Positions 10,766 to 59,480 of a stretch of DNA of 64,000 nucleotides are shown one piece after another. Position numbers and translations under genes: made by a program. Position 1 is the stretch's first letter; the number at the start of each line of letters is the position of its first letter. The notes under the pieces were generated by a model. That model had not been told where the DNA came from. It saw only the letters and a list, made by a program, of their open reading frames with translations, and did not search any database. The DNA lies in contig JARUPZ010000004.1 in the NCBI GenBank assembly GCA_031213475.1, positions 1,158,501 to 1,222,500 on the forward strand. Reading direction: 5' to 3'. The stretch is from Nereocystis luetkeana. Its lineage: Eukaryota; Sar; Phaeophyceae; Laminariales; Laminariaceae.

Positions 10766-12435
10766 TAAAAAAAACAGGCCGCGGCTACCGTAGGGTCAGA
10801 CGCAGTGAGAAGCAAGGTGTGATTGGGTTCCTGCGTTAACCCCATCGGGAACGCAAGCTATAGCCACCAATAACAATTATATAACCTTGGTGTCATCAAC
10901 ATCGTACGAGCAGTGTGAGCGCCCAGTAGTAGACGGGTACAACCATGGTGTGCCCATGCCGTACGACTCCTTGCATCGTAAATTTCTTTCACCAACCATT
11001 GTGTCGATCCCGAATCACGTAGGGGCCGTTGCAGCCGTAATCAATCGATTTCTTTTATCTTCCATTTTTTTTTTCCTCAGATGTTCCAGGAGGGTTAAGC
11101 GGAAGCACTTCCCGCGGTGGGCTCCTCGTACCCCCTTTTCGTCCCGCCCAACCTGGGGTCACCGCACCCAGTTTTGCCCCTCTAGGCAAATAATAGCAGT
11201 GAAACCCGCCTCCTCCCCACGTATTATATACCACCGGGCCAGCAACCAATTTATTTCCGTGGCTCACACGCAGCAACGCGAAAATGTGATCGCGCCCCCA
11301 CCCCCTTTACCATCCCATGGGGGTCGGTGACCCCCCTTCCGTACACCTGTCCGATATTGCGGAAATTCTTAAGCACGGGAGGGACTTTCCTCGGCCCGGT
11401 GTGCGCACTTTTTGAGCGTCATCATGTGGATCCGCGCTGCGTCGGTCTCTCGTCGTGCGTCGTGCTCTCCGCAGCAATCGAGCGATTGTTCGGCCATATT
11501 TTTTCTCTGTTTCTTTTTTTTTTTCCGTATAGCCTTCGGCGGATCGGTAAAACTAAAGCTTAAGAAAACGCCCGTTCGATCGGATCGGGCAAACAAACAA
11601 AACAAGCAGGGGAAGGGAGGAAAGACGTTTATTTCATATTCTTCACCCGATCCAGGGTGAGGTGTCACCCGACTATCCCACTTTGACCCATCACCGAGCC
11701 TGATGGTGCCCCCCCCCCCCCCCCGTTTTCCTGGTGAAAACCGCCTTCTACACGAGGGAAAACCCTCAACTCCCCTATTGGAAAACCAAAACACACGCAC
11801 GCGTGATATGCAAACCTGTCCGCCACGGTCCTTTTTCTTGGTGCGAGAGGAGGCAAGGATAGGCGGAGAGGGCGGTGCACAACATAAAAAAAATGAACAC
11901 TGACGGGACGCCATTCAAGAAATTTTAACGGGTGTGTTTTGAGAGAGGGAGTGTTATTACCCTTTCTCCTACCGCAAAATGTATTCCACTCTAATTCGCA
12001 AATGTATTCCACTCTAATTCCAAGTGTTTTCCCCAAAAAAAACGTGGATTCAGCTGTAAAAGGGATAATAGATATTAGCCTTTGGGGAGCCAGTCATGTA
12101 TACCGCTGTAGCGATAAAACATACCGGTACCATACAATAATTCGTCTTCTCATATTCAGGCCGCGCAGCATACGATAAGGCATGCCAAAGACGCGCGCGT
12201 ATCGGTGCAACTCCTTTGCATCGGGGTCCGACATTAAATGCATCACCCCCTCGTACAGCAGACGAACCTACCCACGTAACAGCCCTCGTTTCTGACTGAC
12301 GCTGCAACCGTTATTTTCGTTGTGATTTTAGTTTTTGCCCTCCGACAGCAGTGCATCGTACACGTTCCAACCCGAATATTCTTTAGCACCGCAGTGGTAG
12401 TCTCTCTTCCATCACTCTGAGCCAACAGATTATAT

Positions 12436-12477
<42 letters not shown>

Positions 12478-12630
12478 ACTATCCCGTCTCAAAGGTTCCT
12501 CCTCACACCTCCCTCCCTCCCTCCTGCCCTCCTTCCATCCCTCCCTCCCTCCCTCCCTTGGGTTTTCTACCCGTCACCCCCTTCCCCTGCGCCTGAAGTA
12601 TTATGAAAGGGTTTTAATAGGTGGCTCGGG

Positions 12631-12700
12631 CCTCTCTCCTTCTCTGACCGAACTCGGACTGGGTGAGTATGCTCGCTAGCTCCTAGTTTAGATGGTTGGG
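12631..12700 (-). repeat. decayed duplicate of the ferredoxin exon 3 end
   Basis: On +, 12631-12678 (ctctctcc..ccgaactcgg..tatgctcgct) matches 12701-12750 (ctctctct..ccgaacttgg..tacgctcgtc) at a period of about 70 bp. The matched part of the real exon contains the last codons and the stop. The duplicate lies just beyond the stop, and its stop codon is changed. Confidence 0.6.
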
Positions 12701-12712
12701 GTCTCTCTCTCT

Positions 12713-12823
12713 CTATCCGAACTTGGTCTTGATGTTTACGCTCGTCTTGTTTCGAGGCACGATAGCCTTGCAAATACGGATCTTCCTCCCATCTACGATG
12801 GACTCGCACGTTCCACAGTCCCC
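12713..12823 (-). CDS. ferredoxin-like gene, exon 3 (terminal)
   Basis: This 111-base exon includes the stop. It encodes GDCGTCE, IRICKAIVPRN and the C-terminus NIKTKFG, with cluster cysteines C123, C126 and C138. The acceptor GACGGCAG follows a T-rich tract on the minus strand. It joins exon 2 to give CEKGDCGTCE, an uninterrupted cluster-binding loop. Confidence 0.9.
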   Translation of the reverse strand, partial: GDCGTCESIVDGRKIRICKAIVPRNKTSVNIKTKFG

Positions 12824-13586
12824 CTGCCGTCACGGTAGCACACACGACGGACGAAAAAAAAAAAAAACCCGAGTCAGCACGGAGGAAGGAAGGGAGGGAG
12901 GGAGGGAGCGTGGTGCGAGCCGACAGGACGGAGTTTCGGTATATACAGAAGTAACCCCACGGTAGGGGTTGCACTTTTTGGGCAAAAGGTTTCTGACCGA
13001 TTGAGTTCCCTAAGTGAGGGATCAGCAGTTAGGATGAAAATTGTACTCGTATATTCGGTTCAGGACTAGCGCATACAAGTGCCGGTCGGGTGGCGCGAAC
13101 AAATTTCTTCCAAGTATTGTATCGGGTGAGATATTGAGCTCCTACTGTGAGGGGCTCAGGAACTTCTGGTGCACCCCTACCGTGGGATGGCTCACAGGTA
13201 TCACTCAAGACACTCCTATTTTGGGTCAGGCTCGGTTTCTTACGCGAGGCAAGCGAAGCAAGCAAGCCCGAATAAAAAAGGAGGAAGGGACGGCAAACAA
13301 GCAAGCGAACCAGCGAGCAAGCAAGCTAGCAAGCGAGCGAACACGCAGACGAGCAAGAAAACAAGCAATAGAGCAAGCAAGCAAGCAAACAAGCGAGCAA
13401 GCATGTACGTCAGCAAGAAAGCTAGCAAGAAAGCGAGCAAACAAGCAAGACAAGCAAGAAAGTAAGCAAGCAAGCAAGAAGCAAGCTCGAGCAAAAACGG
13501 AGAAAAGCGCGGCGGCGTGAGTAGACAGCATGTACGTCAGCAAGAAAGCTAGCAAGAAAGCGAGCAAACAAGCAAGACAAGCAAGA

Positions 13587-13618
<32 letters not shown>

Positions 13619-16600
13619 TCGAGCAAAAACGGAGAAAAGCGCGGCGGCGTGAGTAGACAGGACGGAGTTACGATACGGATCAAACACAGCAGAGATGGTC
13701 GCTGTATAGAGTGTCGGTATATATGCGCCAGCCAACAAAAACCGGCACTCTAGCGGCAATCGGGACTATACACTCCGCACACTGCCACACCGGCCAATCC
13801 CATCTCTGCCAAGCGATTCCACAGGCACTGACTACGGCGGGCAGTCGGCACTATAGAGGGGCCACTACTGTATGGTGAAGCCCTTCAAAACTACATGCTT
13901 TAGTCAGGGGACGAACCACTTGGAATCAGAGTTGACTAATTTTGACAGTGGCGAAATGGTAGTAACCGTACAGCAGTGCGCGACACTACGTCAGAAAATC
14001 GCCGCTTAAGAAACTCACCGCTTGAGACGATAACAACATTTCGGGAAAGGCTGCGAGCTCTCATTCTTATGTGACGCAGGGTGTATATCCGACACTCCTG
14101 CCAGTTACGTAAAAACAAAATACGGAGTGGTCCAACCAACGGATCTGCCCTCTGCTGTGTGTTCGTTTGGTTGATCGCTTGCCTGCTTCGGTTGTTACCT
14201 TATTTATTTTTTTCGCGCGTGGTAACTCAATGCAAGGCTTCATCCGTTGGGTGGATCAGATCACTGTACAAGCGCAGATCACATAGAGACCACTTTCACG
14301 GATCTGCATCATCTGCATACGATCCAACGGGGCTGATCCACAAGATCTGAACGATCTATGCCAGCGTGGCAATTTTATCACGCGTGTGCCCGGGTTCGTA
14401 AGCACACTTTACTCTGATCTGGTACGATCTGTGTGATTTGTGCACGTTTCCACGCGGCGACCTGCAGTACACTCATGGTCAATAAGTATGTCCCAACCCA
14501 CTGGTCTGTACGGTCTACAGCTGTAGGCCAGGAAGATCGTGACCCGTCCGAAGAGCAATGCCCTATAGGGCTGACGCCTTATTTCCTGATATCCACGCCC
14601 CCGCGAGGTAAGCTCAATGTCCCAACCGAGTCACGACTGCGGTGATTTTGTTCGCTCCACCCCACCAATGTTTCCATGCGGTATATTATATATATATATA
14701 TATATAATATATATATATATATACCTGGAACATGTAACATGTATATATACACGAAGAAAAGCAAAACAAAAAAAACTGTGAAATCGAAAATATAATCCAA
14801 ACTAATCTTCGCGGGCTCATATACAATTAGTGCGTGGTAATAAGTCCTGAAAACAACACCCCGGAGTGTGCTATTAATAGTAAAACTATCATACTATTAA
14901 TATATATATAACCCGGACCTGGTATGATCGTTGCTCACTCGAGGAGCCCAACCGGTCAACAGAAAAGTTTTGACAAAAAACGTGTAACCCGGACCGCCGT
15001 GGGACGAATCCCGACTATCAACAGAGCAACAGCTGGTCACGCACCCCCCACTGAAAAAAAAACAGATTCGGGAGTCTCCGTGTACGCTAGATATCCCTTC
15101 AGTCAGTCCGTGACGGCAAAGCACTCACTCGCGTGCGTACCGCACAATACTCCACCCTCTTGAGGACTTCAAACACGAAAATCGTCGATACGTACGTTGA
15201 CGGCTATAAATAAAACGAGTACAGCAACAGCCATCGCGTGATTGGGGGGGGGGGGGGGGGGGGACGAGTTACAATGGTTGAAAGCCAAGGAGACGCACGC
15301 CACGGGCGCAACATTATCGTATAAGCGTTCACCGCTTCGAGCTCGCCGATCACACTGCTCGTACTCGTAGACGGTCGGAAACAAAAAAATATATACCATT
15401 ACTGTCGGTCCATGTCTAGGGATCCTGAAGGGACGGAATTTTTCAGGCCGATTGACGCGTTCTACGATAGAGGCAGCACACGTGAGACGTTCTACGATAG
15501 AGGTTCACCCTATTTTTTCTGAGGCTCCTCACATGAGGAGCTCCATACCCCACCCGAAAATTTTCATGGCCCACGCATGCAAATTCGTCATTTTTCGGAA
15601 CAAGATTAGCATTCCGACGATTTGGGGGTAAGAAACCCCGTCATTCAGAAAACACTTCAGCGGAAATGTGCTACCTCAATCATCGAACGCGTCATTTCCT
15701 TAAAGCTGTTTTCTGAATGGCGGGGTTCCTTAACCCCTTTAGCACCGCACTCCTATATGTGGGGACAAAACACTATAAATTTTAAGTAGTTTGTCCCCAA
15801 AACGGGACTGGGGTCCTAAGAGGGTTAACCCGAAATCGTCGAAATGCCAACAAAAACATCGAGAAATAACGTGTTTGTATGCTTGGGCGATGGAATTATT
15901 CGTCAGGGTGCAATTTGGTTTTCGCTGAGGTCAGTTTTCGGGTGAGGTATGGATCTCCTTGAGTGAGGCGCCTCAGAAACATTAGGGTGGACCTCTATCG
16001 TGAAACGCCTCGATTTTTTCGACAAACCGGAACAACAGTGATAACGCAAGAGCGATCGATGCACGCGTCGTCTAAACGTATGCGGAAACGCCTCTCTCAC
16101 ACGTGTTCTTGCTAGAGCCGCCAGTCTCGTTGTGCGCGCCCTCCTCTACCCCTATAGGCCAAACTGCCGTCCCCTTTTGGGGACACTCAAATTCCACTCA
16201 AATTCCAAGTATTACGGGGGACCATAGTTAATGGAACCTATGGTATATACAAAAAACCTATGTATTTGACCATTTTTACTAACAATATTGGGTCCTGTTA
16301 ACTGTGGTCCCCCGTAATAGTTCTTTTGGTCCCCTAGACGATACTACAGTTCAGAAAGGGTGGAGGTATGTGTCTGGAATACCTGGCACCTGGTATACCA
16401 TAAGGATGCGAGCCATGCCCCCCCCCCCCCCCCCTCCCCCCCCCTCCCCCCCCCCGCCCGCTAGACCAATTTTCAAAGCCCGATTGCTCCTCAACCGAGA
16501 GGCTGCCAAAAACCGACCGACTCGTCGACGGAAAGCTCTCCACGAGATTCTTCCGAAGCTACCCTCCTCTGCATTGACACCCTTCCGCTTGCCGAGCAAT

Positions 16601-19600
16601 CGAGCTTTCAAAATCGGCCTGTAGGGGGGGTGCGATAACCCGCACCCTTACGGTAATCGGTTCGACAATTCATCCCAGCGCGGGCGTGTTACCTCTTGCG
16701 TGTTATGCACGACAAAATACCAGAATAGCCCATGCATCACGCGACCCATACTAACGAATTATTGTTTTTGGGACAGCCTCACATTCTCGTGTGGGCCAAC
16801 TTCTTATTCGGTGATGTGCCGCTCTGGAATACGATGTGGTGGGACCATATGTGGACTCATGTGACATCATTGTGTGTTGCATTGTGGTGTGACCCGGCAT
16901 GATGTGGTTGTGACTTGATGTGGACTTCTGTGATACCTGGTATCAGTAACATGCTACCTGGTATGTGGTTGTGATGTGATATGATGTGATGTGACGGGCT
17001 GCGATATTATCTGGTGCGATGTGATATCATGTGTTGTGGTGTGGTGTGATGTTATGAGATAAGTCCTGATACGATCTGATCCGATACGAAACATGCAATT
17101 TTGTGGCGTCATGTGATACGATACACCTGGTATATGAGACTCCAAGCAACGTGTTACGTGGTAATGTGTACTGGTATAACGCACGCTCGCGGCAACCGGC
17201 CTAACATTGGGGCGGCTACCACCCTATCACCCTACCACACGTGTGATAAGTGATAAGTGATAAGTGATACCTGGTAAGTGATGATGGATAAGTGATGAGT
17301 GATGAGTGATAATATCATACACACCCTCGGACGAACTTCAAAAGCTGGTTCACAGCGGGGGGAGTGTAAACGCCTCCATACATACGTCTATGGAAATATC
17401 TAGACGAGACGTTTCACGAGATCCTTCCTTCCTAAGCCACCATTTTCGTTGTATCTCGGAGAAAATTGTCTCAGCCGGTGGGTTATCTTGCCTGTCGTAC
17501 GGTTGTCGTGTTGTTGTGTAGACGCACGTACTTCAGACTTAGAAACGATAAAACGACATCGCACGTACTTCAGACTTAGAAGCGATGAACGACATCGACG
17601 TGGAAGGTATCAAGCACTATTTTTATCACCCCATCCGCAAGAAGCATAATAATAAAATATGATCAGCTTGCGTGTGTGTGCTGTGCGATGTGCGAGATGC
17701 TCACCGCAGCTTTCAACAGCCGCACTTCATTTGTCTTTGTAGGGCGGGGGGATAAGGCCACCGGAGAGGCGCCGCGAGCAACACAGAGAGAATCAGCACA
17801 TTGAGTCCCCAACAACCTCCTATCGAACCGTCCGGCAATGGTGTAGGAACACAGCGGCATGTTGACCGCGCTGCATTTTATACGAGCCCGACCGCAGGAA
17901 CATATTCCAGGAAACGTCCTATCGAACAACTCGTAAAACCTACGTACTGGTCGGTTCACATTCTCGCAGAACGTACGAAATCGATCTCAGCAGGCTGATC
18001 TCAGCTCTCGCGCCAACGGTATACCAGGTGTCGAACGCTCCATAGTTCGATGCGTCGGCACTTCCTTTCAACACGAGGCCCAACAAGCACCACGCGATGC
18101 GAATCGAAGAGGGGAAAAAGTGCTGACCTTTTCTCGAGACAAGGTACGCACCTGGCAGTGGGGAGGGGGGGGAAGAGCCGACGACGCGACCCCGGATTTT
18201 GAGGTACGACTTAACAGGAGCGAGAGGGAAAAAGAAGGGCGGGGATACACAAAATGGGACGGAATGAAATAAATACAAACACGCCAATCAGTAAATAAAT
18301 AGTCGTTCGTTTACCTTCTCGCAGCCGTACTCGACCTTCGCTTTAGCCGCCAGCACGACATCACGAAGGCGCTGCCCCTGCACCGCCTGGATGGTCTTCC
18401 CGTTCACGGTCACCTGTGGCGGCGCCGGAAGGAAACAAAATAAATTGGAGGTTTTAAGAAATTGGGGATTGATAAACTGGGAGCTGAACAGCTGAGAGTT
18501 ATCCCTTTTACAATTATGCACTGCTGTGCAAAAACCTAAATCTGACTCTAACTCCAAGTGTTTCGTCCTCACAACAGAAGTGCAGTCCTCGAGGCCCGAA
18601 GGGGTTTCGCAACTAAGTGGGATTAATCGCCTCGACAATCTGCCATACCTTGGTGTATTAGATAATCTAACAGATCATCTCACAGATCATGATCTGCTAC
18701 AGATCTTTCGAGGAAGATCTGTTCCTGATATTGTAAGATTTAGCTCATGCTGTCGAGTGGGACAATATCACCCGCACGACCTAGCGAGCGTAACCTGGGC
18801 TTGGATCTTTCTGCACTAATAATTTGCAGATCCTCCAAAACCCCTAACAACGGCAAGGAACTACATTATCTACCGTAGATCATGATCTGTGGGATATGTG
18901 TAATCTTTCCGTTAACGGTAACCTGGGGAGACGCCGAACGGAACACAACTACTCAAGAAAACGGAAATTAAGAAACTGAGACTTCACCGGCTGGAAATAT
19001 TTCCGTTCACATTCACCAGGGGGGGGTTCCGGAAGGAATAAGGCACTTGAAAAATTGGTTGTTAAGAAACTGGAACTTGATAAATTGGGACTATATCGGC
19101 TTGACAGTATATTTCCGTTAGCGTTGGCGCCGAAAGAAATACAGATAGTACTTAATGACTTGGGAGTTCAAACAATAGGAGCTGCACCGCCTTCATAGTC
19201 CCCCCGTTGACAGTGACCAAAAGGCGATGTCGAAACAATTTTTCGAGCTGGACAGTTGGAATATAAGAAAACTAGGACTCAATTAAAGTGGAACTGCACC
19301 GTTTGGACGGTCTTCCCGTTGTAATGGTCTTCTGCAGGTGGCGCCAAAAGGAATGCAACATTTTACTCAAGAAATTGGAGTCCAAGAAATTTTGGACTGC
19401 ATCGTCTTCAGAGTGTTTCCGATAGTAGACGGAAAAACCGCTGTGACGCCGAAAGGAATACCCTGGTACGGCACATGACAAAACGGGAAGTTGAGACATT
19501 GGGACTGCGCCGCTTGGATAGTCTTTCCGTTCACGGCAACCTGCGGTGAATCGACAAACGGATTATAAGCAGAAGTTGTGAAGTTGGAGTTCCAGATATT

Positions 19601-22600
19601 AGATGATGACAATCTGGGACGTATTCGAGGAATGCCAATTTGATAAAGTGGGACTGAACCGCCTCGATAGCCCTTCCGTTGACGGTAACCTATGCCGGCG
19701 CCGAACGTAACACATCAGGATACTTGGGAAATTGGGGTATAACAAGTTGGGACTGCATCGCCTGGATAGTCTCATTAACGTTGTTCTGCGGGTGGCACCA
19801 AAAGGAAAACAGCAGGAGTACTGAATAACTTGGGAATGCATCGCTTGTAAACGGTAACCCGCGGTGATGCCGAAAGGGAAACAAAAACGTACTTGAAAAA
19901 ATGGAGTTCGAAAAAACGGGACTGCACTACCTCGATGGTCTTTTCCCGTTAAACGTGACCCGCGGTGACGCTGAAAGGAGTATACCAAGTACCTGGTACG
20001 GTACTAAATCAGAAATCGGGAGGTCAGAATTTTTGGCCAGAATTGTACCCGAAACATATGCTAGGGGGTGCTTCTTGTTGTGCAGTACGGGCCCACAGAT
20101 GTGACACAACCTACCAAGAACGTAAGACGCGCTTTTTCGGTGAACGCTCAGAAAGTCGGAATGAGAAATCGAGCAAAACAGCGAGAGCTACAGTACTGTG
20201 AATCCTGCCGGGTATATAATACGGTTAGCCTAGGGCCAAGGTTGGTGAAATATGGTATCACAATAAGGCAGCAAGGCCTCTTCACACTACACGTAATATT
20301 ACGTGCTGCCTTGTTTGGCGGGCCTGTGCTTGTTGGATTCTCTGTTCTCTTCCTGACCCTGGGGATCAATTCCCGGGGAGATGATACAGTCGCAACTTAC
20401 CCCTTCTCGCCTAAGAAAACAACAAAACGATGGAGCTGTGAGTCGGCACAACGTAAGTCACCAACCAGTTATTAGTCGGACAAGTTATTAATACCTGGTA
20501 GTCGTTTTCCGGAGGTGCCGACTATGCGATTTATTCGGCCCGACTATTCGGTTCATTCGGTATCCAAGGGTACACCCACACCTGTAGGAAGGAATACTGA
20601 ACGCGGGATACAATTCTTGAATCTTGGGCTGTCCCCATCGGCCGTAGAGGGCAAATGTGTCTCGCTTTGCTCGCCCGAGTTAAGCCGGCAGACCGGCCAG
20701 CCATCAGCTGGCTTCGTCAGCCGACTTGCCGGCTAAAGTCAATCAGTAGGCTAACGGCGCCTACCGACTAATTTTAGTCGTGAAACCCTGCCGGCTCTCA
20801 GCTTTAGAAATGGACCAACCTGGGCGATACTTCTTGTGTGTATACGGTATAGTACTGTAGTACCATGTCTCCTCTACTTGTGCAGTTATACCACTGCACA
20901 GATGGTTATACCCTATGAGGGTCTATCAAAGCAAAACATTGCTGAGGCCCAAAATACTTTAGATGGTGTTCTGTCGCCACCTGATTAATTTATACAAAGC
21001 ACATCAAGGGTATGGTGTAAGCTTGATGTTGATGGATAAGGAGGAGATATACTCCGCTGTAGTTACTATTGATAATAGAGCTGCTAAACTCCACATAGTT
21101 AATCCCGCAGAAGGAGGGTGAATGTTCAAGTTACGTACGAGTAGTATTCTCAAGGTTTGATTTGTGCATAGCGTGGGTAGGCGCAATTCGACGCGAAGGA
21201 AAGAAAGTGCTGAACTCTTCTCGTGACAATAATGCCTTCCAAGGGGAGAGGGGGGACGAGAGTCTGTCGTGATGCGTGCCACGATACACGTGGCGTCTTT
21301 AGGCCATTTCTTTTTCTGACTGACGGGGGGGTTCCCTAACTGAGAAACTCACCCAATGTCACTGGGAATTGACTTTTTGTTTGCAAGTACATTTTGAACA
21401 ACACCTACGATACGCCAAGCTTAAGCGTCCGCTTGTTTTCGTCAAAAACAGTTTTTGGGAGAGATATAGAGTTCCCTCAAGTTAGGAGCGTCAGAAAAAG
21501 AAGGTGATGTCATACCTGGTACGTACTTCTACCGTACCACACATACTTTGTGTCACCCCTGATCTGAGTTACGACTATTTTATAATTAAAAAAGGCACGT
21601 CAGCTGAGAGTTCGACCGATCGGTCGATACTCAACTTTGCAAGGTTAGGTGCGTGATAACCGTTCGCGGGTTTCCCATTATCTTCCCCGCGATTGACCTA
21701 CTGGCCGGTGACTCCCCTGGATGCTACCAAGGTCGACGAGACGATAACACGCTAGAGGCTAGATTTCCAGTTGATTTCGGCCAGTACCATCTCGTGCACT
21801 GAAACAGCAGTTCCCACGTGAGGGCCACGGTACACAAGACACTCGAAAGATTGTTTATAGCAGTTCATACGTGAGGGCCGGGGCACACACGTCATTGGAA
21901 ACGACTATTTACAGGAAGGAGAGAAATTATGGACGAATTTATACTATTAATGAATACTAATAAAAGGGGTCGTAGAAAACTAAAAAAACAACGTACCAGG
22001 TACGAATACGCAATATTTGTAGAAATGGCCAAAGTTGGATCCATCGTGTACATCCATGCCAAGGTGTTTTTCATGCGGACCGCCAAGGTTCTGGAGTACA
22101 TAATGCAAATATCAAATACCTGGTACCAAATACTCGCACAACAAGCAGCATCAAGATACAAGCAAGTATAATGCGAGGATATAAAGCGTTTACGAGCCAA
22201 GATTCAAGATTATCCAACCTATAGGTACGAGGTCTTCATGTGCTTCTTCGGTCGACATGGAGCACGTAACTTATGTATGGACTTACGGTCATTAAGTCAC
22301 GATGGCAGTGGCTTGAACCCTCGACACTCGACACTCAGCACATAACAAAGTGAGATGACGCTCACAATGACGACGTGTGTTTTCGTTTGTTCTCGAGTTT
22401 TACGAGCTGCGACGAGTACGTACGTACTTTGGAGTTTACCAGTATACTGGTACTGGTACCAGGTACGAAGGTACTACGCGTCGTTTCGACGTATATATAC
22501 TGCCCACGTACTGATTACCACTGCTGTGGGTACAGCCACACTAATGTACCTGGCTGTGCCCGGAAATGTCTGGACCGGCTTGGTCTTCATATTAATATCC

Positions 22601-23528
22601 AAACGGTCCTTACATAAGAAAACGAGAACAATAAGAACGTCAGGCCGAGGTTTTCAGGGAAACGAGAAACCTCAATGCGGTTATATTGAAGTTATTAAAT
22701 AGTGTACTGCTATTACTAAGAACACAAGAAATCCAGGCTGGGTCAGCATTCCTGCTTTATGTGGCGTTGTCTTGCACTGCTGTATCATACCAGGTACGTA
22801 TATACTTGGCACATCTACTGTGTTGTTGTACCAGGTGGTGTAGGCGAGTAGGCGTGGACAAGGTGACGCTAGCACGTCCCTTCATTCAGCAAGAAGGGAG
22901 TGCTGCTGTGCTCTCTGTGTGACGGCCGCACCTGTGCAAATCAGATTACATCAGGTACAATGGCAACCGCACCGTGAATTCATTGCACCTCCGCAAATAA
23001 ATCAACGTCGCCTCCTCTCTTCTCTACAGCCGCTGGTCTCGCCATGTTCACGTTGCAAGGACTGTTGTTGCTACTGCTGCAGCTGCTGCCGTACTGACAC
23101 AGGCAGTACTCGTATGACGTCGCCGAAGCTGCTGACTGTACAACTTTACTTCTATTTTTAATACTGCAGCAGTTGTTGTATCATGTTTATCGAGTAGTCT
23201 TCAGCTCGTCAGTCAGAGTTCATGTTGAATAAGAAAACAAGACAGGCGTGCCTTACACACTACGCACCATGCACTTCTTCGCCTCGTTCTTGAGGCCAGG
23301 ATTCTTGTTCGGGGCCATCTCCTCATTAGCGAACGCTTTCCCCAAGGCATCTCCCCATCCCATTCTCAAGGCGCCCGCCGTTGCCCTGTTCATGGGAGCT
23401 CTCACAGCTGATGGCGTGATTGCTCCATCGTACGAAGCCTTCGCCAAGGACGCGGGGCAAGGCAAGAACGCGCGTACGCAAGAGACGCAAAGTACTAGAG
23501 CAACTAGTATACGTGTGAAGTTCATCAT
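12713..23528 (-). CDS. plastid-targeted [2Fe-2S] ferredoxin-like protein, 3 exons
   Basis: The exons on the minus strand are 23528-23268, 18413-18315 and 12823-12713, all in phase 0, giving 156 aa. Residues 1-20 form a signal peptide with a hydrophobic core and end in VRA|FLP. This is the A|F junction expected of stramenopile bipartite plastid targeting, and a transit-peptide-like Ser/Ala/Lys region follows. The mature part begins near MGWGDALGKAFANEE. Exon 2 encodes the ferredoxin beta-grasp start (VTVNGKTIQAVQ) up to YGCEK; exon 3 opens GDCGTCE. The predicted cluster ligands are C118, C123, C126 and C138 (C-x4-C-x2-C-x11-C). The last gap is much shorter than the roughly 29 residues of photosynthetic ferredoxins, so this is a ferredoxin-like electron carrier or assembly protein rather than PetF. 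Exon 1 could alternatively end 9 bases further on (also phase 0). Exons 2 and 3 are strongly supported. Confidence 0.85.
13243..13660. repeat. (AAGC)n tract with a 127-bp tandem duplication
   Basis: AAGC/GAGC tetranucleotide DNA is followed by two nearly identical copies of a segment that starts with catgtacgtcagcaag at 13402 and again at 13529. Each ends 'gcggcggcgtgagtagacag'. The long Lys/Ala/Ser and Leu/Ala/Cys frames here are by-products. Confidence 0.8.
15459..16012. mobile_element. inverted-repeat element C, with a MITE A nested inside
   Basis: The left end reads gacgcgttctacgatagagg and the right end is complementary (ctctatcgtgaaacgcctc). The arms also pair internally ('gaggctcctcacatgaggag' against 'gtgaggcgcctcag'). 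The right half matches 55158-55405. A family A MITE occupies 15730-15828, and the 55-kb copy shows the empty site. Confidence 0.65.
15730..15828. mobile_element. MITE family A, copy 3 (TTAA duplication)
   Basis: The element is bounded by TTAA at 15730-15733 and 15825-15828 inside element C. The related copy near 55.22 kb has a single TTAA at the same place (ttcttaacccaaaatcg). This supports insertion with a TTAA target duplication, as in piggyBac-type elements. Confidence 0.8.
16157..16336. mobile_element. MITE B (16210-16319) inserted in a MITE A
   Basis: A left family A arm (actgccgtccccttttgggg) runs to ccaagta. It is followed by a full family B hairpin starting TATTACGGGGG and ending CCCGTAATA, then a short decayed right A arm (gttcttttggtcccc). 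Confidence 0.65.
16800..17310. repeat. TGATG/TGATA-rich low-complexity tract
   Basis: Interrupted repeats of 'gtgatgtgat' and, at 17243-17310, 'gtgataagtgataag'. Several short TACCTGGTA motifs interrupt it. No coding potential. Confidence 0.6.
18085..18240. repeat. dispersed repeat 'ttctcgcgacaa' family
   Basis: A segment with 'gatgcgaatcgaagagg', 'gctgaccttttctcgagaca', a G-run and 'gaccccggatttt'. It also occurs near 21185-21290, 25140-25275 and 39065-39200. Non-coding. Confidence 0.55.
18315..18413 (-). CDS. ferredoxin-like gene, exon 2
   Basis: This 99-base exon encodes 33 residues from VTVNGKTIQAVQ to YGCEK and carries the first cluster cysteine (C118). The acceptor is GCCACAG after a pyrimidine-rich tract, and the donor is GTAAAC. 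Decayed copies of its 5' part are strewn through the preceding intron. Confidence 0.9.
18414..23267 (-). other. ferredoxin-like gene, intron 1
   Basis: This intron is about 4.85 kb. It holds the array of decayed exon 2 edges (about 18890-19980), a GATCT-rich repeat (about 18640-18905), dispersed-repeat pieces (21185-21290, 21300-21510) and many TACCTGGTA motifs from 19.98 to 22.84 kb. No other gene is recognised. Confidence 0.6.
18890..19980 (-). repeat. array of about 11 decayed copies of the ferredoxin exon 2 5' edge
   Basis: The unit is about 83-150 bp, mostly 93-108. It contains a pyrimidine tract with an AG acceptor followed by the first 30-40 bases of exon 2, all antisense to +. On + the recognisable cores ('ttccgtt(a/c)acggt.acc', with 'accgcc.ggatagtc' before it) lie near 18905, 18998, 19105, 19195, 19305, 19405, 19515, 19672, 19765, 19850 and 19940. 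The copy at 19506-19550 still reads VAVNGKTIQAAQ after CCGCAG. None has a complete exon with a donor. Confidence 0.85.
23268..23528 (-). CDS. ferredoxin-like gene, exon 1 (targeting peptide and N-terminus)
   Basis: This exon encodes 87 residues from the first of two adjacent ATG codons. The upstream in-frame extension (to 23627) would bury the signal peptide, so the start at 23528 is preferred. The donor GTGCGT follows the ATG codon at 23270-23268. GTGTAA nine bases later is a weaker phase-0 alternative. Residues 57-80 (GWGDALGKAFANEE..., NKNPGLKNE) resemble the segment after the transit peptide in several algal plastid proteins. Confidence 0.75.
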
Positions 23529-24138
23529 GCCGGATGGTGCTCGTGGAGGTGAAAGCCACGACGATGCGACGATGCAATATCTGATTCGTTTACGGTCTAC
23601 AGCTGCTGTAGCGGGGAGGTCAACCACGACCCCCGGTGTGACACCGCCTTTTCCGATCGGAGATTACCCCGACTATCGGGAAAATAATTTAGAGGGTTTC
23701 CAATATCCCCCAGCGGCAGTACGTAGCCGCAGCGCGAAGTCCTCAAGGCCTATAGGAATTGGGACCCGCCGAGCGCAATGAGAGGGCAGTGGTCGTCACA
23801 GTGACAGAAGGAACTAACCACACACCAGAAAGGCACGGGATACATATAATCAATCACGGGGAGGGCGCTCTGAGGGCAGCAGCCCGGTCAGGGTCACCTG
23901 TGCCCCTGTGGGCGAAGGCTTCTTCCACGCAAATATTTTTTGATTCTCCGTCATATTTTTTTTTCGGAAAAGCAGATAAAATCAGCAGTGTTGTGGGGTT
24001 GTGGGACGGACGGAAAGCGACAACATCGGAACGAGGGTACAGCAGTTAGCTTGCTGGTATCCAGCTAGGGGTCTACGATAACCGCTTCCGAATCCACCCC
24101 CCTAGACTTGCTAGACGTGATCGCATCTCAACGCCGCG
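23529..24138. promoter_or_regulatory. divergent intergenic region (shared promoter)
   Basis: These 610 bp separate the start codon of the ferredoxin-like gene (-) from that of the kinase gene (+). They must include both 5' UTRs and, if the gene starts are right, both core promoters. I see no clear TATA box; there is a T-rich patch near 23935-23965. The placement is inferred from the gene models. Confidence 0.5.
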
Positions 24139-54600: not shown

Positions 54601-57148
54601 ACAGCGATATGTGCCACCGTGCGATACAGCGGCAGTGCCTGGTACCTGGTATGGAACATCCACTTTCGTCTTCGCTGGGCTTGGATTGGGTAGTGTGCTG
54701 TGTTGGGCGTGTGGGTTGTGTTGTGTGTGTGTGTGTGTTTTTTTTTTTTTTTTGTACTGCTGTATCGTGTTGTGTTCTTCGTTTTTTATAGTTATCCAGG
54801 CATCCTGCACCGCGCTATCACGATTGGCTACCCTCAAACCTGGTGCCGTATCGTTCCGTGTTGTGTTGTTTCCAGGCGTCTTGCACCGCAATGTCACTAT
54901 TGGACACCTTGAAACCTGATGCCGTATCGTGTGGTGTCGTCTTTTTGTTGTTGTCCAGGCATCTTGCACCGCGACATCAAGCCAGAGAACATCCTCCTCG
55001 TCGACGGCGGTGACCTAGCAGGGGTCACGCTGTCCGATTTCGGCTTCTCTCACCAAGTCTCGCCCAAGTCGCGCCTGGCTTGCGGAAAGCAGGTCTGTGA
55101 TTGCCCGTTGTTGGTGGCGGTGGTGTTCCCGCTGTTGTTGTCGTATATACTGTAGGAGACGCGTTCTACGATAGAGGTAGCGCATTTCCACTAATAGGTT
55201 TTCTGAATGACGGGGTTTCTTAACCCAAAATCGTCGCATTGCCAATCTTGATTCGAAAAATGACTTTCTTGTGTACTTGGGTCATGGGATTATTCATCGC
55301 GGGATGCAATTTGATTCTTGCCGAAGTCAGTTTTCGGGTGAGGTATGAAGCTCCTCAAGTGAGGAGCCTCAGGAAATTCGGGGAGAACCTTTATCGTAGA
55401 ACGCCTCAGGACCAAATAGTGTTGGAGAAAAGAGGGAAATATATAGTTTTTTTTGTGTGTACCGTAGGTCCTATTTACTATGGTCCCCCGTAATATCAAT
55501 AGTGTGAACACCAAATTAATGCTTCCCCACCAAGACGAGCCTATCATCGCGCTGCCGACCACGTTGGCCTGGTGGTCAAACAGCAGTTGGCAAGCATGTG
55601 CGCTGCTGAAGCCACTGCCTCGTCAGATGGATCATTCCGCAATCAAGCAATGACTTTCATCCCGCTACGGAACACATCGGCCTGATCGAGTAGAGCACAC
55701 TCCCCAACCGAGCAGTGGCAAGCATTGCGCCACTGACCACAGCCAGTGCCTCACAAAATGCTGCCCTACCAATTATTGCCGTGTCTTCTGTTGCCTTGTT
55801 GAACAGCTCATGGGTACGCCGTCCTACATGGCGCCGGAGTCCATCCTGCACGGCATGTACGGCAAGGAGGTCGACTGGTGAGGGAGGCGGCTTGTTCACT
55901 TCGCTCGTGCTCTATTTTTTGCTGCTGGTGTTTTGTGTTTGTTGTGGTGGTAGTTGACGTGGTGCTGGTGTTTCGTGGCGGTAGTGTGTGATGCTGGTGG
56001 TGTTTTATGGCGGTGGTGCCGGTGATGATGGTTGCGGCCGTGTTCATTGTGTTTCGTGGTGGTGTTGATGGCGTTGGTGACGGTGGTAGTGGTGGCGATG
56101 TAGGTGATGGCTTTGGTGGGTGGGTGGGTGGTGGTAGTTGATGTTGCGCTAGGCTTTTATTCGAGAGGCAGCCGGATGCTTATATTTACCGCACCGTCTC
56201 AACCCTCCCCCTGCCATTCGTGCCCCCCGGCTGCCATATTCACCCGTGTGCTTGCTCAGGTTCTCCTGCGGGTGCGTGCTGTACATGATGCTCATGGGCA
56301 GAGCGCCCTTCGCGGGCAACAGCCCGTCCGAAATATTCCGCAACACGTGCCACGGTCGGCTCGGGCTGGGGAGGGGGGGTGCCAGCTTGTGGGATAAGCT
56401 GCCCTCTGCTGCTAGAGAGCTGATCGTCGGGCTTATGCAGCTGGACCACAACCTTCGGTATACAGGAGAGCAGGCTATGAGCCACCGCTGGCTTGCAACT
56501 CCGGAGGAGGAGGAGGAGGAGGAGGGGGGGGAGATGGGTGATATGAGGGAGAGTCGCCCCATGCAGCACCCCCAGCAGCAACATCCGCATCAGGAGTATC
56601 ACCAGCAGCAGGAGCAGCATGAGCACCAGCATCAATATCAGAAGCAGCAAAAGCAGCAACAACACAACCATCAGCAGCACCAACCCCTTCAGGAGCAGCA
56701 GCAAGTCCATCATCATCAGCAGCACCAGCAGCACCACCCCCGACAACCAAAGCAGCACGAGGGAGACATGATGGGGAGGACATCATCGAGACGCCGGGAC
56801 GGAGACCGAGTAGGCGGAGGAGGCGGTGTGGGGGGCGGGGGGGTGGTTCAAAGCCGCAGCCGCAGCGGCAGCAGCCGAGCAGGGCGCAGCCGCAGCAGCA
56901 GCGGGGTCGACAAACATGATACCGTTCGCGGCACAAGCAGTGTCGGCGGCGGCGGCGGCGGCAACAGCAGCAGCAACGGAAAAGCGTCATCGAGAACTCC
57001 CGCGTCTAACACCGCAACAGTTTTGCCGAGCAGCAGCAGCACGAGCTGTGCGAGCAGCTCCAGCAGCGCGGTGGGCGGCGCCGGCGCCGGCGGCGCCGGC
57101 GGCAGCAGGGGGGATGGGCCTCCTAGAAGGGTCGATGCGGGGGCATGA
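24139..57148 (+). CDS. EF-hand / PH / CAMK-type protein kinase (CDPK7-like), 15 exons
   Basis: Exons: 24139-24206, 41924-42057, 43286-43425, 43778-44263, 46428-46546, 47522-50017, 50785-50934, 51542-51608, 52284-52388, 52786-52891, 53516-53631, 54438-54531, 54959-55092, 55807-55877, 56260-57148. All have GT-AG ends, the phases agree throughout, and the total is 5175 bases (1724 aa plus stop). Order: N-myristoylation motif (MGATGSK), four EF-hand motifs (about 24-310, loops 2 and 3 intact), an 800-residue Gly/Ser/Ala/Arg/Pro linker, PH domain (about 1115-1236), kinase domain (about 1242-1507), and a Glu, His/Gln and Gly/Ser tail. Catalytic residues are intact: K1271, HRDIKPEN (D1366), DFG (D1387), APE. 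EF-hands and PH ahead of the kinase is the reverse of plant CDPKs and matches Plasmodium CDPK7. A membrane-associated, calcium- and phosphoinositide-responsive kinase is inferred. Confidence 0.85.
29076..29203. mobile_element. MITE family B, copy with TACCTGGTA insertions
   Basis: It aligns to the copy at 33455-33563 almost throughout. The extra bases include 'cctggta' between 'cgaaatatata' and the T-run, and a second 'tacctggta' near the right end. Confidence 0.7.
29490..31390. repeat. segmental duplication, left copy
   Basis: It matches 39955-41480 in order. Shared landmarks are 'aaggttcc..tccctc.gggac', 'ggggctggaaatat', 'ctcggctgcccacgaaaatc' with a CAG run, 'gcgtgatgttgcttcctgct', 'cacgcgctccagagg' and 'cggacctcgaccaatgtg'. 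Within each copy a roughly 110-bp segment (near 30110-30225, 30510-30615 and 30865-30955) recurs. At 30988-31177 a 95-bp segment is tandemly duplicated almost without change. No recognisable gene. Confidence 0.7.
32806..32901. mobile_element. MITE family A, copy 4
   Basis: A full-length hairpin flanked by TTAA on both sides (cttaaccctttttgaaccgc ... aaaggggttaacc), with arms meeting at 'ccccaaacgggac'. Confidence 0.8.
33455..33563. mobile_element. MITE family B, copy without TACCTGGTA
   Basis: The hairpin starts TATTATAGGGGACC and ends GGACCCCCGTAATAG. The centre 'cgaaatatatagttttttg' has no inserted motif, so it serves as the reference for the 29.1-kb copy. Confidence 0.75.
34570..34750. 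repeat. GC-rich dispersed repeat, copy 2
   Basis: Opposed GGGTC/GACCC words in the same order as 10620-10765. Confidence 0.6.
37573..37791. mobile_element. MITE B (37605-37740) inserted in a MITE A, with TACCTGGTA units
   Basis: Family A arms flank (ggggacaaacc..attcgtag on the left; gttgtatgcccccaaaag..gaagggctaa on the right). Between them is a family B copy enlarged by 'cctacctggtacctggtatc' and other CCAGG/CCTGG words that are absent from the B copies at 1.05, 16.2, 33.5 and 44.4 kb. Confidence 0.65.
37975..38100. repeat. 22-bp minisatellite
   Basis: About five to six units of 'ctattttttgcgctaaggatg' type in direct tandem. Confidence 0.7.
38926..39001 (+). other. tRNA-like segment (possible SINE head or tRNA pseudogene)
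   Basis: The segment has a match to the RNA polymerase III A box (TGGCTTGGTAGG, one mismatch). A near-match to the B box (GGTTCAAGTCT) lies about 45 bases on and sits in a T-arm that can pair (GTGGG/CTCAC). A T-run (ctttttc) follows near 39011. The acceptor and D stems do not pair well, so it is not called a functional tRNA. Confidence 0.3.
39517..39672. repeat. (TAC)n microsatellite
   Basis: A long, nearly pure TAC/CTA triplet run with one 'tgctgc' interruption. Poly-Thr, poly-Tyr and poly-Leu frames here are by-products. Confidence 0.95.
39821..39917. mobile_element. MITE family A, copy 5
   Basis: A full hairpin (ttgaccgttttagagctgca ... cccgaaagggtcaa). Its flanking TTAA has changed to TTGA/TCAA. 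Confidence 0.8.
39955..41480. repeat. segmental duplication, right copy
   Basis: This is the partner of 29490-31390, shorter by several hundred bases. It retains the CAG-run block (40484-40507), two of the internal 110-bp segments (40560-40710, 41065-41170) and the 'acctcgaccaatgtg' end. Confidence 0.7.
41924..44263 (+). CDS. kinase gene, exons 2-4 (EF-hands 1-3)
   Basis: Exons are 41924-42057, 43286-43425 and 43778-44263. EF1 (around VDKHGEAIDKATF) has lost the loop ligands. EF2, residues 75-86 (DSNKSGRISFDD), is complete except Asp instead of Glu at position 12. EF3, residues 111-122 (DMNGDGLISRDE), is canonical, and its loop is cut by the exon 3/4 junction after Gly114. The helices around them (FPVPGLVGDRLF, GLAVCCRGSLEEKMRFIF) are of the calcineurin-B/neuronal calcium sensor type. 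Exon 4 then runs into a Gly-rich insert before ERIADQALSEF, the entering helix of EF4. Confidence 0.9.
43040..43240 (+). repeat. pyrimidine minisatellite before kinase exon 3
   Basis: Imperfect units of 'tatccccttcctagcccc' type fill the last 250 bases of intron 2. They form an expanded polypyrimidine tract ahead of the acceptor at 43285. Confidence 0.65.
43426..43777 (+). other. kinase gene, intron 3
   Basis: This 352-bp intron is made largely of GGT/GTT/GAT triplets on the coding strand. Introns 7 and 14 (about 51110-51400 and 55900-56140) have the same composition. The Val/Gly and Thr/His/Asn frames here are by-products. Confidence 0.6.
44369..44477. mobile_element. MITE family B, copy in kinase intron 4
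   Basis: The ends are TATTACGGGGGAC and CCCCCCGTAATA, and the centre 'accatttttactatcaatat' matches the 16.2-kb copy. Confidence 0.75.
45037..45790. mobile_element. non-autonomous TIR element (Harbinger/Tourist-like)
   Basis: The ends GGGCCGTTCCTAACGAAC and its imperfect complement (gttggttaggagtggccc) are flanked by TTA on both sides (45034-45036, 45791-45793). Subterminal sequence is rich in AATCACGATTCGTGA palindromes. It is 754 bp with no transposase frame. The TTA duplication and GGGCC ends suggest a PIF/Harbinger relation. Confidence 0.6.
46428..46546 (+). CDS. kinase gene, exon 5 (EF-hand 4)
   Basis: Found by matching exon 4's end (GGGD, phase 0) to an exon opening GQPLTFDQFQCWAQQTP, which completes the fourth EF-hand. 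The acceptor is TTGTCCAG and the donor GTACGT (phase 2, required by exon 6). The loop is degenerate: Gly-rich, with Gln at the position normally held by Glu. It probably does not bind calcium. Confidence 0.8.
47522..50017 (+). CDS. kinase gene, exon 6 (low-complexity linker and PH start)
   Basis: This single 2496-base exon codes for about 832 residues. Nearly all is low complexity: runs of Gly (up to about 13), Ser, Ala, Pro, Arg and repeated APA words. There are occasional basic/Ser clusters that could be phosphorylation sites (RSNSLS, SRTLSRNTS). The last 34 residues (VALDGYLWKPGS...LYYFVRPG) begin the PH domain. The acceptor is TTTTTTCAG and the donor GTGAGA (phase 2). The frame extends upstream to 47490, but that part is intron. 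Confidence 0.85.
50785..52388 (+). CDS. kinase gene, exons 7-9 (PH domain end and kinase start)
   Basis: Exons are 50785-50934, 51542-51608 and 52284-52388. They read DRKPRGVISLPGC, an acidic Ser-rich PH loop, GYFGLRLFRPNN, RLLLAKSAQ, then ERDEWVAEL, the PH C-terminal helix with its conserved Trp (W1225). Kinase subdomain I follows at once (FELKALLRKGAFASV). The glycine-rich loop keeps only its central Gly, having Arg where the first Gly is expected. Confidence 0.9.
52786..55092 (+). CDS. kinase gene, exons 10-13 (kinase N-lobe and catalytic loop)
   Basis: Exons are 52786-52891, 53516-53631, 54438-54531 and 54959-55092. They carry AVKVID (K1271), the alpha-C region, SHPNVVRLEAVHED, the hinge and GGDLWDK, RTVMRPLCEAVAYLH, then ILHRDIKPENILL and LSDFGFS. 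Exon 12 opens at 54438 after GAAAG; upstream in frame is a stop, which fixes the acceptor. The pattern is that of CaMK/CDPK-type kinases. Confidence 0.92.
53636..53960 (+). repeat. minisatellite at the start of kinase intron 11
   Basis: Units of about 22 bp (gttgggttttgccgagagca type) begin a few bases after the donor of exon 11. Near 53755 the segment 'atgataagggctggtcagg' resembles the real exon/donor junction 'gggataaggtgacagccgg'. Confidence 0.7.
54796..54958 (+). repeat. two decoy copies of the exon 13 acceptor and catalytic-loop start
   Basis: Just before exon 13, the 'ccag|gcatc.tgcaccgc' junction occurs twice more, with pseudo-exon starts at 54800 and 54876 (periods 76 and 83 bp). 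The decoys read LHRAIT and LHRNVT in place of LHRDIK. Each would meet a stop codon before rejoining the true exon. The shared tail 'gccgtatcg..gtgttgt' shows that the unit includes intron sequence. Confidence 0.9.
55158..55495. mobile_element. element C half-copy followed by a truncated MITE B
   Basis: 55158-55405 matches the right half of the element at 15459-16012, including the end 'tttatcgtagaacgcctc'. From 55409 the right part of a family B MITE follows directly (ggaccaaatag ... cccccgtaat). Confidence 0.65.
55807..57148 (+). CDS. kinase gene, exons 14-15 (kinase C-lobe and tail)
   Basis: Exons are 55807-55877 and 56260-57148. Exon 14 reads GTPSYMAPESILHGMYGKEVDW, with the Trp codon split. 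Exon 15 reads FSCGCVLYMMLMGRAPFAG to SHRWL, completing the kinase fold at about residue 1507. The remaining 217 residues are an acidic run, a His/Gln-rich stretch, then Gly/Ser/Arg-rich sequence ending RRVDAGA. There is no C-terminal calmodulin-like domain. The stop is TGA at 57146. Confidence 0.9.
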
Positions 57149-57600
57149 CAGTTGAGGGCACGAGGAGGAGAAGCAGGAAAAGGAAGAGGAAAGCCGCGCA
57201 GGACAACTAAGGATAGAGGAAGGAAGGGGAGAGCCGAGGCATGTGGTCGCGGGTAGGAGGGGAAAGAAGAGGAGGAGAGCCGGGGCGTGGGAGCTAAGGA
57301 TAGGTGGAAGAGGAGGAGGAGGAGCAGAGGCGCGGCGTCACAGCTGGGGATGGGAGAAGAGGAGGAGGAGCGGGGCCGCAGCGTTACCGCTAAGGATAGG
57401 AGAAGAGGAGGAGGCAGAAGAGGAGCAGAGCCGCGCCGTTTCAACGGGGGAGAGGATAGAATGAAGACGAAGAGAAGCAGAGCCGCGCCATTTCAGCTGA
57501 GGGGAGGAGAAAAAGAAGGAGGAAAAGGAGCAGATCCGCGTCGTTGCAGCTAAGGATAAAAGGAGGAGCGGAAGGAAGAGAAGGTTGAAGCGGGTTGAGT
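57130..57600 (+). repeat. purine-rich minisatellite starting at the kinase stop codon
   Basis: There are about eight imperfect units of roughly 50 bp (agccgcgccgtttcagctga followed by gg/aagaggagg). The first unit (gggggcatgacagttgaggg) contains the stop codon of the kinase gene. Later units carry 'gcgtcacagctggggatggg' at the same place. It lies in the 3' UTR. Confidence 0.75.
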
Positions 57601-58640: not shown

Positions 58641-59099
58641 GTGGGAACGATCCGTATGACCTATCCGATGCGTGTAGCCCTTTGCTCGCTGCTGCAAAAA
58701 TTGTCGGACTTGAATTGCATGTTGGTTGCCCCCAAAACTGGGGGTGCAGTTTTTAACGGGTCAACATACCGCCGTGGATCCCACAAGAGCGTGAAAGAGA
58801 TAGCAAAAAAAAAAACGCCTGCGGATGGATGCGTCGAGAGATTCTCATCCAGCCAGCAGCCATCCAGGCCAGCTGCCAGCTTGCGTCAGTCCTGCCTCTC
58901 AAATCTACTCCGGCTGACTTCGTCAAATCGTCCGTCATCTACAGGATTGAATGCATGGGAGTGTTCTTGATCGGTATTTTTCCGTGGGATGTAAGACGGA
59001 CAGCGTTTGTTTGTCTATGCGGGAGGTGCTCTCGGATTTTTATTTTTATTTTGAGGCGCTTCTCCGGAAGGCACGAGCAAAGTCTAACGCAGCATACCG

Positions 59100-59480
59100 G
59101 CTGTGTGCTGTGCGGGGTGTTTGCTGTACTGGCATGGTGTTGGCTGTGCAGGTAGCCCTTTGACTGTGAAGACAGGGATTTGCTTTGCAGCCAGGCATTT
59201 TGTTGTGGGGACGGGTTTTATGCTGTGCAGGCAGTGGATTGCTGTACAAGCAGGTTTTTTCCTGGGCAGGGAGGGGTTTGCTGTGCAGGCAGGTTCTGCT
59301 GTGAAGAAATAGGTTTTTGCTGAGCAGGCAGGCTTTCTGCTGTGAAGGCCAGGGTGTGTTGTGCAAGCAGGCTTATTGTTGTGCAGGTTTCCTGTGCAAG
59401 CAAACTTTCTTCCGTGCAGGCCGGGGTATCCTGTGCAGGCAGGGGTTTACGATACAGGCAGGATAAAAGCTGTACCGGAT
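59100..59480. repeat. 18-20-bp minisatellite
   Basis: Units of 'ttgctgtgcaggcaggttt' type in imperfect tandem. The Gln/Cys-rich frames are by-products. Confidence 0.75.

Follow-up and report, generated by a model that had tools for sequence, protein, structure and literature searches.

Why should an intron carry, in a row ahead of an exon, a series of worn likenesses of that exon's own first bases? The question is raised by a ferredoxin gene on the minus strand of a stretch of the Nereocystis luetkeana assembly (contig JARUPZ010000004.1, 64 kb, hereafter the window). In intron 1 of this gene, upstream of exon 2, 11 diverged units of about 100 nucleotides (nt) lie head to tail on the minus strand, from 20036 to 18900, and the last unit of the array is the intact start of exon 2 itself. 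Judged from its sequence, the array is very probably an old mirage, that is, a minisatellite-like tandem amplification of a single intron-exon boundary.

The three exons of the gene (23528-23268, 18413-18315 and 12823-12713) give a spliced protein with a Pfam Fer2 match (E 3.7e-7), which is alignable with its orthologues over the whole length; the orthologous proteins show the expected exon join. This alignment comprised the query and 12 of 18 proteins, with P0013, P0015, P0016, P0017, P0018 and P0019 left out. Protein matches place the source lineage in the brown algae or a close relative; the best named full-length ferredoxin relatives come from Ectocarpus (74% identity), Scytosiphon (73%), Ascophyllum (62%) and Discosporangium (54%). 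The exon-1 open reading frames (ORFs) of relatives (P0010, P0011, P0012 and P0014) end at the same intron position. Rfam, searched at gathering thresholds, gave no match within 12000-24000 of the window. The gene is laid out as follows.

23268-23528, minus strand: ferredoxin exon 1 (MMNF...KKCM), then the donor GTGCGT (motif positions, orthologue alignment)
18414-23267, minus strand: intron 1, 4854 nt, with the array at its 3' end (motif positions, orthologue alignment)
18315-18413, minus strand: exon 2 (VTVNGKTIQAVQGQRLRDVVLAAKAKVEYGCEK), then the donor GTAAAC (motif positions, orthologue alignment)
12713-12823, minus strand: exon 3 (GDCGTCESIVDGRK...KTKFG, stop) (motif positions)

Read in the gene sense, the stretch 20036-18378 splits into units of 83-149 nt in a common register, the junction between them mostly being GTGCAG (or a variant) followed by TCCCAA (or a variant). 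Each unit joins an intron end to an exon start. The intronic part measures 50-77 nt (113 in U5 and 70 in the authentic unit) and in places carries shorter repeats spaced by about 15 nt; the exonic part amounts to 36 coding nt in both the consensus and the real exon, and 23-42 nt in individual copies. Only the first 36 of the 99 nt of exon 2 have been copied: beyond them the copies pass to TCCCAA or similar, and the real exon runs on into GGGCAG. The initial annotation had described just such a composition, an intron end plus an exon start and not the whole exon, and its identification of the ferredoxin gene and of the exon peptide was likewise correct. Its placing of the units around the intron-exon boundary also holds, as the copies do align there, and the copy it had read as VAVNGKTIQAAQ after a usable AG is U5. 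The start of the array moves from the proposed 19980 to about 20036.

19922-20036, minus strand: U1, decayed, AG lost (CGG) (alignment, leave-one-out profile)
19836-19921, minus strand: U2, decayed, AG lost, internal deletion (alignment, leave-one-out profile)
19753-19835, minus strand: U3, decayed, CAG kept, first exonic base 19785 (alignment, leave-one-out profile)
19654-19752, minus strand: U4, decayed, TAG kept, VTVNGRAIEAVQ (alignment, leave-one-out profile)
19505-19653, minus strand: U5, decayed, about 50 extra nt, CAG kept, VAVNGKTIQAAQ, first exonic base 19540 (leave-one-out profile)
19397-19504, minus strand: U6, decayed, AG lost (leave-one-out profile)
19294-19396, minus strand: U7, decayed, CAG kept, frame shifted (leave-one-out profile)
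19182-19293, minus strand: U8, decayed, AG lost, VTVNGGTMKAVQ (leave-one-out profile)
19091-19181, minus strand: U9, decayed, acceptor deleted (leave-one-out profile)
18982-19090, minus strand: U10, decayed, AG lost, three intronic subrepeats about 15 nt apart (leave-one-out profile)
18900-18981, minus strand: U11, decayed, CAG kept, split by an insert, with its remainder at 18641-18623 (leave-one-out profile)
18642-18899, no strand assigned: insert of about 260 nt between the halves of U11 (self-comparison)
18484-18622, minus strand: U12, tentative, strongly degraded, undetected by profile (by eye)
18378-18483, minus strand: authentic unit, the end of intron 1 (18483-18414) plus the first 36 nt of exon 2 (profile, shuffle test)

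The insert within U11 has inverted-repeat arms (18677-18704 and 18868-18895) and, by eye, is flanked on both sides by AGATT; weak partial matches to it occur elsewhere in the window, at 8858-8783 and 42551-42451.

That the array is real was established by leave-one-out profiles searched against both strands of the whole window. All 11 copies were recovered, with E-values from 1.9e-6 (U6) to 2.3e-16 (U4), and the authentic exon unit, when left out in its turn, was found in register by the profile of the copies at E 5.5e-19; the columns of these profiles were taken from a single alignment of all units, so that a left-out row is not wholly independent. Outside the array the best match in the 13 runs had an E-value of 2.6, and nothing was matched downstream of the exon unit. 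With the exon unit alone as query, nine matches of at least 5 bits fell within the array (top score 31.3 bits), while only two of 200 dinucleotide shuffles gave a match of at least 5 bits, one each, the better reaching 8.0 bits. The interval 18622-18484, our tentative U12, is unit-like by eye and was unrecovered by the profile search; it was kept out of the profiles and of the decay and dinucleotide counts below, and enters only the tally of codons over 12 copies.

The direction of descent, from exon to array or from array to exon, may be read from the copies themselves. Over the 12 decayed copies, U12 included, the commonest bases are GTT ACC GTT AAC GGA AAG ACT ATC CAG GCG GTG CAG, a consensus which, with the exon excluded, encodes VTVNGKTIQAVQ, identical to the peptide of today's exon. 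It departs from the real exon at four third positions, each time synonymously, with two of the four resting on narrow majorities (codon 5, A 6 versus G 5; codon 1, T 5, C 3, G 2, A 1). When the last 20 intron bases and the 36 exonic bases are compared with the consensus of the 11 copies, the real unit differs at 8 of 32 neutral sites and at none of 24 first and second codon positions (Fisher p 0.008). Because the consensus encodes the exon peptide and the differences are confined to neutral sites, it was the exon that gave rise to the copies, and selection has since held the real exon alone. Conservation in other species agrees with this. Of the 7 aligned relatives that cover the start of exon 2, 6 begin it with VTVNG, and Phaeothamnion has VIVNG; with the exon peptide conserved outside this species, its start is not derived from the array. 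By these comparisons the array is derived from the exon, which stayed under purifying selection while the copies decayed.

Decay has affected the two parts of the unit alike, with mismatches to the consensus in 81 of 375 exonic cells and in 44 of 213 cells of the last 20 intron bases. Values are higher further upstream (36/99 and 111/352), where the alignment is less sure. Coding selection on the copies was considered and rejected, as codons with a single difference comprise 18 synonymous and 36 nonsynonymous changes, a ratio not different from that of random changes (27 and 81 expected; p 0.27). The exonic length is not divisible by three in 6 of 11 copies. Identity between units is flat with distance along the array (0.57-0.63, mean 0.596, or about 40% divergence), neighbouring units being no more alike than distant ones in the one haplotype read, and the exon unit shows an identity of 0.635 to the copies. 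Given this flatness, the units appear to stem from an old burst, with no recent homogenisation.

A homologous array is apparent in other contigs. Protein searches returned two ORFs, P0025 and P0026 (each with 2 member sequences and 8 contigs in ENA), that are built of array units and carry the array junction VQ|SQF. In tblastn they match the array of the window at several places, with best E-values of 2.3e-10 and 7.1e-7 respectively, against 0.33 for the best of seven reversed controls, and P0026 has a further match, at 5.2e-8, to the exon unit. A reading of exon 2 shifted by one base could encode the final 17 residues of P0026, with 17 of 17 codons compatible and jointly feasible; the ORF thus passes the end of the unit into exon sequence missing from the array, and it ends where that phase has a stop. 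Among 5500 windows of the collected proteins, taken in two phases, the next best scores were 12 (an array stretch of P0025) and 11, and 20000 random 18-mers scored at most 12. As P0026 runs from array units into exon 2, a homologous array directly precedes exon 2 in another source. That source is likely another species, probably another brown alga, given that its sequences are not identical to those of the window, whose own proteins carry a separate mark. At the level of proteins, the array is probably older than the split between the two. In the upstream intron (31-85 codons) of the exon-2 ORFs P0019, P0020, P0021, P0023 and P0024, no gene-sense array match was found at E of 1 or below, under which a stretch like U12 would also escape recognition. 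The upstream part of P0021 gave weak matches elsewhere (0.044) and on the opposite strand at the array edge (0.15), and an RLSR-like resemblance in P0019, seen by eye only, was dropped. No related locus was confirmed in viral and prokaryote collections.

We propose that a segment reaching from some 50-80 nt inside intron 1 to coding nt 36 of exon 2 was duplicated in tandem, and that it may have grown to a dozen or so units through replication slippage or unequal crossing-over, an amplification mechanism that we infer. The unit nearest the gene body would have stayed joined to the rest of exon 2 and under purifying selection, while the upstream units, having turned intronic, would have decayed by the substitutions, indels and one insertion visible today. 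Splicing would then be expected at the exon-proximal acceptor, with the other upstream AGs acting at most as weak decoys that give early stops.

Several points weigh against this proposal. Firstly, the second codon positions of U1-U11 vary least (15/125, compared with 34/125 for first and 32/125 for third positions; column permutation 0.0015). Plain neutral decay does not predict such a deficit, which stays unexplained; nor do first positions as variable as third ones fit coding selection. Secondly, of the 10 copies aligned at the acceptor, 5 no longer have its A (binomial 0.043), which may be a weak hint of selection against decoys and not of pure neutrality. Thirdly, the assignment of P0025 and P0026 to another species is itself something we infer.

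The alternative that best survives, improbable as we consider it, is that the array is a working splicing device, in which several upstream acceptors are used and alternative or deliberately unproductive transcripts tune ferredoxin levels. Five of the 11 copies (U3, U4, U5, U7 and U11) keep the AG, and at three of these the 17 positions from -20 to -4 hold 12-13 pyrimidines, comparable with 12 at the real site; U4 and U5 retain the AG, the frame and most of the peptide. The odd conservation of second codon positions and the homologous array in other contigs could also be cited in its favour. Set against this, the mean retention over the 55 dinucleotides of the stretch is 6.4 of 11, and 16 of the 55, AG included, are retained as poorly as AG or worse. 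Retention of AG is not above that of other dinucleotides, so there is no sign of acceptor preservation, and selective retention was rejected. With the AG kept in 5 of the 11 copies, up to a dozen related 3' splice sites, as initially suggested, are too many. If translation is read on without further splicing, the first stops after the five kept AGs come at codons 32, 53, 58, 20 and 19, that is, by codon 58 at the latest. Finally, in our reading of the alignment none of the units has a GT immediately after its exonic piece, and no cassette exon would therefore be formed there. Most likely the exon-proximal acceptor is used and the upstream AGs are silent or rarely used decoys; the copies are probably functionless.

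A related possibility, which we rate marginally lower still, is that the array is retained for a splicing role as a set of repeated CAG|GT boundaries, serving as decoys or as stepwise (recursive) splice points. Such points would set the pace at which the 4.9-kb intron is removed, or adjust the output of ferredoxin, and fresh units would arise while older ones decay. Retention of AG and of GT (5 and 7 of 11 copies) is no better than the mean of 6.4 among their neighbours.

That the unit belongs to a dispersed class of mobile or introner-like elements and stands in tandem here by chance is decidedly unlikely. Introner-like elements carry splice signals, and P0025 and P0026 each stand for 8 contigs, a number that could reflect either dispersal or several assemblies. 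The units have one kind of junction, and P0026 leads into exon 2 itself, both of which argue against dispersal. The unit profile found no convincing match in 20 stretches of 10 kb of this genome (best E 0.8), a small sample whose 200 kb cover about 0.04% of 465 Mb. Neither in the window nor in this sample does the unit recur elsewhere at a convincing score, so the widespread occurrence that would have refuted the initial annotation was not seen there, and the idea of a dispersed repeat is left unsupported, if not closed. A 71-nt query from the exon unit matched only itself in the genome; the 11 known decayed copies were missed too, making this search uninformative on scattered decayed copies.

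Less probable again is an origin in reverse, in which the minisatellite existed before the exon start and a shifted acceptor then recruited its last unit as that start. The exon unit is indeed as close to the copies (0.635) as these are among themselves (0.596). However, the peptide or a close variant occupies this place in Ectocarpus, Scytosiphon, Ascophyllum, Discosporangium and Choristocarpus, and a more diverged form does in Phaeothamnion; the shared intron position in the relatives' exon-1 ORFs and the exact match of the copy consensus to the conserved peptide also speak against capture. Degenerate local arrays are generally hard to assemble, but an assembly artefact or chance similarity is scarcely credible here, as a mean divergence of about 40% is not that of one sequence falsely expanded, shuffles gave nothing comparable, and a homologous array exists in other contigs.

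To the favoured reading, amplification of a boundary, there are precedents, contrary to the impression in the initial annotation that no class of this kind had been described. As described in two reports, lancelet mirages are minisatellite-like duplications of intron-exon boundaries whose splice signals are kept in many, not all, units (PMC3087553; PMC3902484). The unit of BflGb6 comprises the 3' end of an intron and the 5' part of exon 2 (150-160 bp), with 6 and 3 units in two haplotypes that are 81-100% identical; reverse-transcription PCR by the authors, together with data on Adh3, suggests regular splicing despite mirages (PMC3087553). PGBD5 was added as a further case with repeats called imperfect, and troponin C and Adh are cited (PMC3902484). 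Lancelet mirages, as described there, and the ferredoxin array share one anatomy, a boundary unit with splice signals in part of the units. Here, too, the unit spans the boundary, the authentic boundary forms the end unit, and AG persists in many but not all copies (5/11). The ferredoxin array differs from BflGb6, as there described, in its units of about 100 nt, its 11 detected copies, its mean identity of 59.6% and its lack of any sign of current homogenisation.

Human genes in segmental duplications contain internal tandem repeats at exon-intron boundaries that can create introns or alternative splicing (PMC2812944). Minisatellite expansion at such a boundary is common to both cases, but the human repeats, in the same account, are young and variable in number, with units of 30 bp on average (PMC2812944), and the ferredoxin array is old and seemingly silent. 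The Rogers model, as named in PMC3087553, has introns gained through tandem duplication of AG/GT proto-splice sites. It resembles the present case, as outlined there, in that a stretch bearing splice signals is tandemly duplicated inside a gene. In the ferredoxin gene a new intron is not seen; the copies joined an existing intron at a position common to relatives. Tandem exon arrays of the Dscam type also consist of tandem copies with an acceptor and coding sequence. Mutually exclusive exons have a whole exon with acceptor and donor in each copy, in contrast to the 36 of 99 exon bases copied here; being partial and with no donor at their end, the ferredoxin units cannot be such exons.

We found no report of boundary minisatellites in brown algae or other stramenopiles in the open-licence literature covered, one topic of it through 12 of 119 papers. 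The ferredoxin array would thus be an unusually old example of a class already described, in a lineage for which no report was found, and it places boundary-spanning minisatellites, for which we found descriptions in lancelets and, in a related form, in human genes, in a brown alga. A dozen apparently neutral copies would record how the exon looked when the array formed, a single intron allows neutral decay to be set beside purifying selection, and the locus may offer a natural test of how the spliceosome ignores several related upstream acceptors.

Local degenerate tandem arrays are common in this genome. In the 200-kb sample, 162 of 1980 test segments had at least 4 local degenerate copies, grouped into 13 clusters that include one large satellite; within the window, at least 3 local copies were found for 22 of 639 segments, 9 of the 22 inside the ferredoxin array. 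The crossing of an exon boundary looks to be what is uncommon about the latter. Nearly all of one sampled 10-kb stretch (L011, G000:C4:2000001-2010000) behaves as a single satellite array, with up to 66 local copies per segment. Elsewhere in the window, a degenerate array of about 20-nt units at 59090-59450 has the form TTTGCTGTGCAGGCAGG, that is, repeated pyrimidine-plus-CAG motifs, and a degenerate purine-rich array of 46-52-nt units (57269-57556) closely follows the stop codon of an ORF (56246-57148) that has a match to a protein kinase. A 24-nt tandem array of about 29 copies, at 1426-2128, has long ORFs on both strands.

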